DNA of 23,734 bases from positions 1-23,734 of IMG/VR virus record IMGVR_UViG_3300036832_000723. One strand, written 5' to 3'. The notes below the pieces were generated by a model. It saw nothing but the letters and a program-made list of their open reading frames with translations, ran no database searches and was not told the DNA's origin. Below, one piece after another: positions 4,794 to 23,734 of the stretch (positions are counted from its first letter, which is position 1; each line of letters starts with the position of its first letter). This DNA comes from a virus. Made by a program: the position numbers and the translations under genes.

Positions 4794-5224
4794 TGCCAGC
4801 CGCCCCCACGGTGGCCGTGGTCGGCCTGAAGGCCTTGCAACGCGACCTGGCCCGCCTCGCCGACCCCGTCGGCGGCGACATGGCCGCCGCCCTCGCCGCC
4901 GCCGGCCGCCAGGCCGCCCAGCCCGTAGCCGACGCCGTCCGCAACGCCTACCCGTCCGTGTCCGGCCGGCTGGCCGGGTCGGTGCGCGTCACCGGGTCGC
5001 GTACCGGCGCCGCCGTCCGGGTCGGCCGCAAGAGCATCCCCTACGCCGGGCCCGTCGACTTCGGCGGCTGGCCCGGCGACCGCCCCTACCTGCCTGACGG
5101 CCGCTACCTGTACCCGGCCATGGCCGCCCACGCCGCCGACGTCGTCGCTGCCTACCAACGCGAGGTCGCCGCCGCCGTGGCCGCCTTCGGGTGGACCAAC
5201 CCGGGCGACCAGCCGCATGACTGA
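4793..5224 (+). CDS. HK97 gp10-like minor structural protein
   Basis: A 143-aa protein whose ATG overlaps the stop of the major tail gene. It shows the plan of HK97 gp10-like tail components: an N-terminal helix with VVGLKALQRDLARL, a helical run of Ala/Gln, an RLAGSVRVTGSRTGAAVRVG beta hairpin, and IPYAGPVDFGGWPGDRPYL, equivalent to the family motif YA..VEfGt..arPfl. A C-terminal helix follows. In many phages this gene precedes the major tail gene; here it follows, a minor change of order. The upstream in-frame extension to 4709 would overlap the tail gene and is not favoured. Confidence 0.75.
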   Translation: MPAAPTVAVVGLKALQRDLARLADPVGGDMAAALAAAGRQAAQPVADAVRNAYPSVSGRLAGSVRVTGSRTGAAVRVGRKSIPYAGPVDFGGWPGDRPYLPDGRYLYPAMAAHAADVVAAYQREVAAAVAAFGWTNPGDQPHD

Positions 5225-5525
5225 CCCGACCCAGGCGCTGCCCACGCTGATCTCGGTCCCCCAGGCGTTCATGGCCCGCCTGCCGTCCCAGCGGGTCATC
5301 GACCTCCTCGCCCGCCTCGAGCCGGGCGTCAAGATCGGCGAGCTGATGGAGGGCCAGCCGTCCCGGATCATCGCCTTCCGGGCCCTGCTACGCGACCACC
5401 CCGACCGCGACCCCACCTCGCTGTGGTTGCACGCCTACGACTGCGAGGTGGAGATGGTCGCGGTGGACCCTACCGGCGGCAACGGGCTATCGCCGTCGCC
5501 CACGTCTGCGCCTACTACAAGCTGA
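5217..5525 (+). CDS. Tail assembly chaperone, first frame
   Basis: A 102-aa reading frame beginning in an 8-base overlap with the previous gene. Position immediately before the tape measure gene, size, and mainly helical content (SQRVIDLLARLEPGVKIGELM, SRIIAFRALLRDHPDRD, SLWLHAYDCEVEMV) match the lambda G-type chaperone that coats the tape measure protein during tail assembly. The last 16 or so codons (after GGNG) become Ser/Pro/Thr-rich low-complexity sequence, suggesting the biologically relevant product may shift frame before this stop. See the overlapping frame ending at 5638. Confidence 0.75.
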   Translation: MTDPTQALPTLISVPQAFMARLPSQRVIDLLARLEPGVKIGELMEGQPSRIIAFRALLRDHPDRDPTSLWLHAYDCEVEMVAVDPTGGNGLSPSPTSAPTTS

Positions 5526-5638
5526 GCCCGGCCGTGGTCGAAGCCCTCGACGACGACATGTGGGAGGCCATGGTCGCCGTCATGGCCGCCGAGGCCGACG
5601 CCATCCGCGCCCAGGCCGCCAAGCCGACGGGGAGATAG
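5423..5638 (+). CDS. Tail assembly chaperone, frameshift extension
   Basis: This frame is -1 relative to the first chaperone frame and ends 4 bases before the tape measure start. Its sensible protein sequence begins around AIAVAHVCAYYKLSPAVVEALDDD and runs as acidic/helical sequence to AAKPTGR, resembling the second (T-type) chaperone domain made by ribosomal frameshifting. The codons upstream of about 5471 in this frame are Arg/Gly-rich and look non-coding. I see no canonical X-XXY-YYZ slippery heptamer. The best weak candidate is slippage of the CCT codon at 5469-5471 back onto CCC. An independent GTG start at 5423 is the alternative. Confidence 0.55.
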   Translation: MVARLRLRGGDGRGGPYRRQRAIAVAHVCAYYKLSPAVVEALDDDMWEAMVAVMAAEADAIRAQAAKPTGR

Positions 5639-16764: not shown

Positions 16765-17438
16765 GTCGCATCGACGACCTGTACGCCAGGGCCCGCCGGG
16801 CCCTGGCCACCGGCGAGTCCTCGCTGTGGGAGGCCGCCGAGGCCATGGCCGAGCTGGCCGCCCTCGGCCAATCTCAACGCAGGATCGCCGACCAGCTGGG
16901 CTGTTCACAGAAAACGGTTGGACGTTACCTGGCCGTTATTCGTGAGTCTGCCAGACTCAGCATTAGGCCCCCGTTCGCCGAGGCCTACACCTTGGCGAAC
17001 CCGGATAACTCCACGGGGGCCTTCGTCAAGGTACCCAAGGCCCCCGAGAAGCGGGCCGAGCTGGTCGCCGAGCTGCTCAAGGACAAGACCGTCGCCGACG
17101 CTCCCATTATCCGGGAGGCCCAACAGCGGATCGCCCGGCGCCAAATGAAGGAGGAGGCTGCCACCTTCAACCGGGAGCATGACATCAAGACCCGGACAGA
17201 AAAGGAACGGGCCCGTCGGCTGACGTCCGTCGAGGAGAAGCAATTCTTCTGGCGAATCCTGCTCGGCGACATCAACGAAGCCATACGCAAACTCGGCGAG
17301 GCCACCAGCGAAGTGGAGCGGACCGGGCTGCCCCGCAAGGACTCCGGGGAGATCATCCGCAAAGCCCGGGCGCTGGCCCGGGCCGCGGAACGGTTCGAGC
17401 AGGCCGCCACGTCCGCCGGCATCGGCCAGGCGATGTGA
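16761..17438 (+). CDS. HTH protein of ParB/KorB type
   Basis: A 225-aa protein. Residues about 36-60 (GQSQRRIADQLGCSQKTVGRYLAVI) form a clear helix-turn-helix of the ParB/KorB or resolvase-like type. An N-terminal helix (ALATGESSLWEAAEAMAELA) packs before it. From about 95 onward the protein is highly charged and helical (AELVAELLKDKT, EEAATFNREHDIKTRTEKER), ending in a Lys/Arg/Ala-rich helix. It lacks the ParB nuclease (GxxRR) box. It may be a replication accessory, segregation or regulatory factor; position in the early operon fits any of these. Translation is coupled to the upstream unknown gene and to the methyltransferase gene. Confidence 0.7.
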   Translation: MSRIDDLYARARRALATGESSLWEAAEAMAELAALGQSQRRIADQLGCSQKTVGRYLAVIRESARLSIRPPFAEAYTLANPDNSTGAFVKVPKAPEKRAELVAELLKDKTVADAPIIREAQQRIARRQMKEEAATFNREHDIKTRTEKERARRLTSVEEKQFFWRILLGDINEAIRKLGEATSEVERTGLPRKDSGEIIRKARALARAAERFEQAATSAGIGQAM

Positions 17439-17791
17439 GCCGCCGCCGCGATCCCTTCGCCCAGCTGGACGCGTCCCGGCGCGTCGGCTGGGCGAAGTTC
17501 TACGAGCAGTCGGAGCACGTCGAGCAGCTGGAGGCCTTAAACCGCGTCCTGCGGTCACGGGTGGAGGATCTGGTGCCGGAGTTCCTGGCGCTCAAGGACG
17601 CGGTCCTGCACGAGCGCAACGTCGTCGCCTTCAACCAGGCCTACCGGGTGGAACAACTGATCAGGAGCGTCATCGATGGATCGCCCTTGGCGGTGCGCTT
17701 CGACCTGGACCCGGCCGCCGCGCCCGGTGGCGCTCACGTCCCGGCCGACAGCTACCTGACCGCCGACGACGACGGGCTAGCGCACACATGA
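17435..17791 (+). CDS. DNA N6-adenine methyltransferase, N-terminal part before an in-frame TGA
   Basis: A GTG start overlaps the previous stop. The 118-aa product has a helical N-terminal region, then VRFDLDPAAAPGGAHVPADSYLTADDDGLAHT at its end. That ending is the first half of the phage Dam-type N6-adenine methyltransferase core, whose members continue ...DDGLxxxW-x-G-x-V-x-x-NPP[YF]S. Here the next codon, exactly where the conserved Trp should be, is TGA (17789-17791), and the same frame continues with RGLVWLNPPFSN. Without readthrough this protein would lack the catalytic NPPF motif and be inactive. The usual family N-terminal motif DxWxTP is also not obvious. Confidence 0.75.
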   Translation: MSRRRDPFAQLDASRRVGWAKFYEQSEHVEQLEALNRVLRSRVEDLVPEFLALKDAVLHERNVVAFNQAYRVEQLIRSVIDGSPLAVRFDLDPAAAPGGAHVPADSYLTADDDGLAHT

Positions 17792-18106
17792 CGCGGCCTC
17801 GTCTGGCTCAACCCGCCCTTCTCGAACATGCCACCGTGGGTCGATCGCTGGATCGCCCACGCCAACGGATGCCTCCTGTTCCCATGGACCGACGCCGACT
17901 GGCACCGCCGCCTGCTGGATGCCGTGCCCCTGGTCGTGCTACTGGACCGCCCAAAGTTCGACCATCCCACCCCACACTGGCCGCCACGTGCCCGTCGCGT
18001 GTGCTGTCACCGCCCTCGGCAATGGGGCTCGCACCGCTGCAACGGCTGGCCGCTCATCAGTGCGGACGAGCCCTTACGGTCGGGTGGGTCGCATGACTAC
18101 GGATAA
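17792..18106 (+). pseudogene. C-terminal part of N6-adenine methyltransferase after in-frame TGA
   Basis: This 104-codon stretch stays in the same frame as the preceding gene. It starts RGLVWLNPPFSNMPPWVDRWIAH, containing the catalytic motif IV (NPPF), then GCLLFPWTDADWHRRLLDAVPLVVLLDRPKFDHP, typical of the second half of the methyltransferase core. Later residues (RARRVCCHRPRQWGSHRCNGW) are Cys/Arg-rich and less family-like. It could be translated only by TGA readthrough (the TGA-C context is a leaky one) or from an internal ATG at 17830 that would omit NPPF. I treat it as the 3' part of a gene broken by a TGG-to-TGA change, with readthrough or sequencing error as alternatives. Confidence 0.65.
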
Positions 18107-18519: not shown

Positions 18520-18720
18520 ATGGTGGATGGCGACGACGGCCGGGCCCGCCTGCTCGAGGAGTTGGCGGTGGTGAACGCCGAGCTGTCCCGTCTGGGCGTG
18601 CCAGCCAAGGTGCCGGTCGAGGTCGCCGAGATCTACCCGACCGCCGACCTGGTGACGTTGGTGGCGGCGGCGCGCCGCCAGTGGCTGACGGTCTTATACC
18701 AGCTGGGTGGGACGGCGTGA
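18520..18720 (+). CDS. 66-aa small helical early protein
   Basis: A strong ribosome binding site GGGGAGG precedes the ATG. The product MVDGDDGRARLLEELAVVNA... has an acidic N-terminus and two helices: RARLLEELAVVNAELSRLG (coiled-coil-like) and DLVTLVAAARRQWLTVLYQL, joined by a Val/Pro-rich turn. It overlaps the replication initiator by 4 bases (GTGA) and is probably co-translated with it. Size and position might suggest a helper of the initiator, but no family is recognised. Confidence 0.65.
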   Translation: MVDGDDGRARLLEELAVVNAELSRLGVPAKVPVEVAEIYPTADLVTLVAAARRQWLTVLYQLGGTA

Positions 18721-19205
18721 ACATCGCGGCGGTGATGGTCGCCCTCGACGTGGACGACCTCGACCATGCCGCCAAGCACGCCCTGGTGGTGGTGTGCTGC
18801 CGGGCCAACCATCGCAGCGGCGACGCCATCGTGTCGGCGAGCCGGGTGGCGACCGACATGCAAGTGTCATACAAGACGGCCTTGGACGCGTTGCGGCGGG
18901 TTGTGGAGGCGGGCTACCTGATTGTGGATAAGTCGCCGGGTCGGACGCCCAGGTACAACGTCACCCCTGTAGTAGCTACAGGGGTGACCCCTGTAATCAG
19001 CGACCGCGACCCCTGTAACCAGCGCCCAAACCCCTGTAACCACGACAGGACGAAAGATAAGAAAGAGAAAGTCAAAGAGGCGAACGCCGCTCGCCACGGC
19101 TCCGCCGCGGCGGCGTCCGCTGGGGAAAAGCCAGCCGCGGCGATGTTCATGCCCGGCTCAGGCTGGATCGCTGACTGGTCGTCGAACGGGAGGATTGATG
19201 ACTGA
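18717..19205 (+). CDS. Winged-helix replication initiator with embedded origin
   Basis: A 162-aa protein starting with GTG in a 4-base overlap. Residues about 15-82 form a winged-helix domain of the kind seen in phage replication initiators: HAAKHALVVVCCRANHRSGD, SASRVATDMQVSYKTALDAL (recognition helix), then VVEAGYLIVDKSPGRTPRYNV (wing). Residues 83-110 are encoded by the iteron array and are of low complexity (VTPVVATGVTPV, DPCNQRPNPCNH); a Lys-rich stretch DRTKDKKEKVKE follows, then an Ala-rich tail. This plan, DNA-binding domain at the N-terminus with iterons inside the gene, is like lambda O. It likely binds the iterons and recruits the host helicase (inference). Confidence 0.72.
   Translation: MNIAAVMVALDVDDLDHAAKHALVVVCCRANHRSGDAIVSASRVATDMQVSYKTALDALRRVVEAGYLIVDKSPGRTPRYNVTPVVATGVTPVISDRDPCNQRPNPCNHDRTKDKKEKVKEANAARHGSAAAASAGEKPAAAMFMPGSGWIADWSSNGRIDD
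18961..19080. other. Putative replication origin (iterons plus AT-rich purine tract)
   Basis: The 10-mer ACCCCTGTA[AG] occurs in direct orientation at 18963, 18987, 19009 and 19030 (spacings 24, 22, 21 bases, about two helical turns each). A fifth copy is inverted at 18976-18985, making a perfect inverted repeat with 12-base arms 18961-18972 and 18976-18987 around TAG. Immediately downstream 19051-19080 is about 37% GC by count and almost all purine on this strand (one T in the central part), a good DNA-unwinding candidate. All lies inside the initiator gene. Confidence 0.72.
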
Positions 19206-23438: not shown

Positions 23439-23734
23439 CCGACCCGGAGTGCCGTGACTTCTCCGCCGTCCTGCACCTGCGCGACGTCCAGGCGGTGGGC
23501 CGGCCGTACAAGTACCTGGAGGGCCGGGCCGTCCCCTACGACGAGTGGGCGCCGGTGCGAACCCAGTTCGGCGGGTTCCTGGAGCGCCACCAGCACGGCT
23601 CGTTCAAACGGTCGACCAGCCCGTCCCGGCCGGCCGGGCAGCGCCTGCCGCTGCTGCTCTTCCACGACAACCGCTCGTTTCCGATCGGCCACGCCGAGTC
23701 GTGGCCTCATCCCGCCGACGGCCTGCACGGCGTG
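23435..23734 (+). CDS. Prohead protease, 5' part (continues at base 1)
   Basis: The first 100 residues of the protease whose C-terminal part opens the window. The ATG overlaps the portal stop in ATGA. It begins with VQAVGRPYKYLEGRAVPYDE, the N-terminal strand pair of prohead proteases, then the catalytic-His segment LLLFHDN (His77). Codon 49 here is identical to codon 1 of the window, so joining the ends restores one continuous frame of about 205 aa. This copy reads SWPH where the left copy reads SWAH. Confidence 0.93.
   Translation, partial: MTDPECRDFSAVLHLRDVQAVGRPYKYLEGRAVPYDEWAPVRTQFGGFLERHQHGSFKRSTSPSRPAGQRLPLLLFHDNRSFPIGHAESWPHPADGLHGV
23579..23734. repeat. Terminal overlap, right copy (matches 1-156)
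   Basis: Same 156 bases as the window start with two mismatches at 23705 and 23707. See the left copy. It marks the joining point of a circular map of about 23,578 bp. Confidence 0.93.

Follow-up and report, generated by a model that had tools for sequence, protein, structure and literature searches.

The frame at 17435-18106 of the window (the whole 23,734-nt stretch of viral DNA analysed here) is best read as a pseudogene. We put a probability of roughly 0.88 on its being the decaying remnant of a small Dam-like (PF05869/PHROG 111) orphan N6-adenine methyltransferase fused to the end of a small conserved gene. Three lesions, a separate identity of the first 84 codons and a differing content of the same slot in two relatives all appear clearly at the level of sequence comparison. 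The preliminary description of this DNA had offered inactivation by an in-frame stop as one option; inactivation was supported, but the stop is one lesion among three, as motif X is also absent and the C-terminus lies in another frame. Counting against a pseudogene, the catalytic NPPF, the FDLD motif and the codon-position GC bias of the core are still good.

Genome setting and layout of the frame

The two ends of the record (1-156 and 23579-23734) overlap by 156 bp with 2 mismatches, three positions apart (127/23705 and 129/23707), and the prohead protease frame is continuous over the joint; the genome is therefore complete, circular or circularly permuted, with a length of ~23,578 bp (23.6 kb). 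The mismatches show some variation or an end error in the assembly. Among its genes are those for an integrase, portal, terminase, capsid, amidase and a RecT-like protein; small Rhodococcus and Gordonia phages have terminases of ~40% identity to that of the window, and the genome is temperate actinophage-like. The frames of the main structural and replication genes are intact, and neither tRNA genes nor Rfam elements were found in the window. Because TGA terminates 15 of the 19 main genes, it is a normal stop in this genome, and this count, together with the lack of a tRNA gene in the window, speaks against its use as a sense codon. Two overlapping frames 5' of the tape-measure gene (5217-5525 and 5423-5638) resemble a tail assembly chaperone pair with programmed frameshifting.

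The frame reads ...LTADDDGLAHT, TGA, then RGLVWLNPPFSN... (Table 1). The TGA falls at residue 119 and is followed by the base C; 104 sense codons come after it before a TAA at 18104-18106, and the NPP[YF] of motif IV is present as NPPF at frame residues 126-129, confirming the earlier report of an open frame of 104 codons with the catalytic NPPF beyond the stop. The open runs after the 15 other TGA stops of the genome ranged from 11 to 644 codons and exceeded 100 codons in four cases, some of the runs crossing neighbouring genes. Since long open runs after TGA are common at ~70% GC, the open frame beyond the TGA is weak evidence. The ORF at 17788-18096, whose ATG overlaps the TGA in another phase (ATGA), was considered as a coupled start and set aside, its GC by codon position being not coding-like and the ORF probably a chance one. 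No second copy of the frame's protein was matched elsewhere in the window.

Table 1. Segments of the frame at 17435-18106 and the observations on which each is based
Feature	Position	Strand	Basis
Small conserved gene, function unknown, 84 codons; start of the frame, outside the methyltransferase	17435..17686	+	Comparison with L002
Methyltransferase piece upstream of the stop, running from FDLDPAAAPGG (motif I region) to DDGLAHT	17687..17788	+	Family HMM match starts at LAVRFDLD; GC3 0.88
In-frame TGA at the family's conserved Trp	17789..17791	+	Alignment of relatives
Methyltransferase piece downstream of the stop, running to PKFDHP and including the catalytic NPPF of motif IV	17792..17968	+	Family HMM to position 132 of 165; phrog_111
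Putative displaced C-terminus, +1 frame, ...HVPVACAVTALGNGARTAA, family positions ~138-156	17964..18038	+	HMM score gain
In-frame tail past the frame displacement, without family similarity	17969..18106	+	0 bits added; codon-position GC flat

Family assignment of the core

With the TGA read as W, the frame matched the Pfam Dam family PF05869 at 31.4 bits over residues 88-141 (cut-off 28.1) and the DNA methyltransferase PHROG 111 with an E-value of 1.5e-17 over residues 88-181, and the half after the stop alone matched phrog_111 with an E-value of 1.1e-7. Residues 1-84 had no methyltransferase match in either the Pfam or the PHROG library, and a family HMM built from intact relatives matched the window over model positions 37-132 of 165. 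The reading of the frame as an adenine methyltransferase thus holds for codons ~85-178 only, and fails for codons 1-84, a separate gene.

The window shares with PF05869 (Dam), TIGR01712 and PHROG 111 the FDLD-to-KF core, the NPPF motif IV and the DDGL-x3-W-x-G-x-V-W-x-NPP spacing, but differs from them in the lack of motif X, the stop at the conserved Trp and the C-terminus in another frame. It falls under the TIGR01712 cut-off, as did both intact relatives tested. The closest cores, with up to ~54% identity, belong to intact methyltransferases of ~153-163 aa from uncultured phages (L013-L017, L021, L024 and L039), which, unlike the window, start ~35 residues earlier with a motif like SDDYYTPRW and finish in a motif like LGRVR. 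Orphan methyltransferases of Gordonia phages (Nordenberg gp84, Ali17 gp59 and Archis gp70) resemble it in family, actinobacterial hosts and a position 3' of small DNA-binding or hypothetical genes, but are intact and have ~180 codons. No solved structure was credibly related by sequence, and those related by fold were only the distant rRNA adenine dimethylases (KsgA/Dim1), while a Foldseek search against viral models returned phage N6-adenine methyltransferases, as expected.

Intact versions in related phages had been suggested as a check, and no close one of the whole frame was found in viral contigs, genomes, phages or plasmids, the best reaching ~54% identity over the core. For want of a sister sequence, we infer the lesions by comparison with the family.

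The stop stands at a near-invariant tryptophan

In an alignment with eight relatives, the TGA aligned with an invariant Trp. A first large set of relatives had Trp throughout, but its search pattern contained that Trp and was circular, and this set was put aside. For a second set, genomes and viral contigs were searched with a query alignment that begins behind the Trp. Among the distinct sites recovered without Trp in the query, 144 of 146 had Trp; one of the two exceptions had Leu and the other was a copy (L226) that is itself frameshifted, and none of the relatives had a stop codon at this position. The original claim that the TGA lies exactly at a conserved Trp of phage N6-adenine methyltransferases is thus confirmed.

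The first 84 codons belong to a separate small gene

The relative nearest to the frame is L002 (IMGVR_UViG_3300036791_000894), whose similarity is confined to the first part. Between the 84 codons and L002:3001-3252 we found 93% amino-acid identity, with dN of 0.052 and dS of 0.61 (NG86) and with 25 of the 36 differences at third positions, and on these substitution patterns the small gene is evidently under purifying selection. The GSPS-stop of the L002 protein coincides exactly with the point at which the window takes up its similarity to methyltransferases (GSP|LAVRFDLD), and the L002 record yielded no Dam-type methyltransferase. As L002 carries the small protein alone, ending at the junction, the window frame is, by this comparison, a fusion of this small gene and part of a methyltransferase.

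Such a fusion might itself have been selected, the small protein having gained a 34-residue tail of methyltransferase origin (FDLD, DDGL) that binds something and the TGA trimming off the rest. The small gene is indeed under purifying selection and is joined in frame to the fragment, but an in-frame junction has a one-in-three chance, the L002 homologue does without such a tail, and the tail is common to no relative, making this explanation highly improbable. Hardly more plausible is a closely related reading, by which the small protein captured the FDLD-to-DDGL piece and so acquired a new C-terminal extension, with the chimera's end set by the stop at the Trp and rare readthrough perhaps serving as a reserve. 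A functional role for the methyltransferase fragment within the 118-residue product is nevertheless conceivable.

Both ends of the methyltransferase are impaired

In intact relatives the protein starts ~35 residues ahead of FDLD, with a motif such as SDDYYTPRWVFDALG, and among 79 relatives the Thr-Pro of this motif X is strongly conserved (T in 77/79, P in 68/79). No Thr-Pro motif X was present before FDLD in any frame of the window. Upstream frames joined to the core at two offsets scored 117.6 and 119.4 bits, compared with 115.1 bits for the core alone, but neither contained a Thr-Pro, and background pieces scored as well in 238/3000 (117.6 bits) and 67/3000 (119.4 bits) cases. Restoration of motif X by an upstream frame was accordingly rejected, the gain being unconvincing against background and no Thr-Pro being read. 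The catalytic Asn/Asp of DNA m6A methyltransferases is kept in position by motif X, the residue pairs being T23 to N105 in M.TaqI and K11 to D171 in T4 Dam (PMC3814359). Judged by order and spacing, the Thr-Pro of the present family is probably the equivalent of the M.TaqI residue. One longer frame among the relatives (L025:449-1318, 290 codons) has an extra N-terminal part followed by a methyltransferase with motif X intact.

At the other end, the family similarity of the frame was lost after residue ~178, and the codon-position GC of the tail was 0.73/0.68/0.68, compared with 0.70/0.47/0.86 just before. The +1 frame joined to the core raised the HMM score from 115.1 to 126.2 bits, whereas the in-frame tail gave 115.2 bits, and the C-terminal strands and helix of the family were found in the +1 frame only. 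For background, 1500 loci of the same genome were scored, taking the best of 8 offsets each, and 0/1500 reached 126.2 bits (top score 125.3). The putative frame displacement near the C-terminus depends on this gain of 11 bits, obtained over a short stretch. For the intact relative L014, an AlphaFold2 model (mean pLDDT 90, pTM 0.84) shows which predicted elements the window would lack, namely the strand with Thr-Pro and the helix next to it, the first of the protein (20-29), together with the closing strands and helix (about 122-147).

These two lesions bear on the view that the TGA arose as an error of the consensus, or is a variant carried by a minority of a mixed metagenomic population, in which most phages have the Trp. 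The difference is a one-base change at a conserved Trp, and the record is a virus contig whose 156-bp end overlap disagrees at two bases. Against this, the missing motif X reflects a rearrangement and is no matter of base calling, the C-terminal frame displacement is a second, independent lesion, and the error rate looks low, given the intact frames of the main structural and replication genes. We consider such an error unlikely, and one at the TGA would leave the gene broken because the other two lesions stay.

Readthrough and restart at the stop

The preliminary description had also raised the idea of a readthrough switch, in which regulated readthrough of the stop makes a little full methyltransferase besides the short protein. 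The TGA is followed by C and the frame stays open for 104 codons, NPPF included; even so, the full product would lack motif X and the family's C-terminus with its last strands and helix, folding of the 100 bases from the stop is no stronger than that of shuffled sequences (z -0.58), no relative has a stop there, the downstream frame is displaced, and long open frames after TGA are common at such GC. The literature search found nothing fitting on a comparable readthrough methyltransferase in a phage. A switch of this kind is unsupported and seems scarcely credible. A restart after the stop was rejected, as the first in-frame ATG lies at 17828, past NPPF, and would give a product without the catalytic motif.

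An exchangeable slot and a possible route of decay

A second relative, L254 (IMGVR_UViG_3300005332_000021), has in common with the window a ParB-like gene, 58% identical, and, at the DNA level, the replication region (18574-18940). Between these two homologous regions, at L254:850-2360, lies an intact methyltransferase of PF01555 (N6_N4_Mtase), similar to that of the window in place but different in kind, with a DPPY motif and an intact frame where the window has a broken Dam-type gene; no PF01555 match was found in the window. With PF01555 in L254, no Dam-type gene in L002 and a broken copy in the window, these three genomes, of which L002 and L254 are fragments, point to an apparently exchangeable and dispensable methyltransferase slot. 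A methyltransferase split between two frames was seen at 4 of 160 surveyed family loci (L106, L126, L153 and L226); broken copies thus appear not to be rare in the Dam-like family, though assembly errors could explain some of the four.

Under the pseudogene reading, a methyltransferase would once have occupied the exchangeable slot, with the ParB-like/HTH gene on one side and the replication genes on the other. A rearrangement would have joined it, minus its first ~35 residues and with them motif X, to the end of the small conserved gene. The remnant also carries a displacement of the frame by one base close to the C-terminus, and a nonsense mutation has hit the near-invariant Trp; any order among these events is a presumed one. 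Translation from 17435 would now yield 118 residues, comprising the 84-residue small protein and a meaningless 34-residue tail ending at the TGA. The decay is probably recent, as the core keeps a GC of 0.86-0.88 at third codon positions.

Protection from host restriction is the role established for many phage orphan methyltransferases, and from the broken gene described here the phage would presumably get no methylation. The finding has little reach beyond the window genome, but it offers a warning that both ends of a gene should be checked before a stop at a conserved residue is read as recoding, and it would show an accessory methyltransferase in the course of being lost by a phage whose relatives fill the slot differently.
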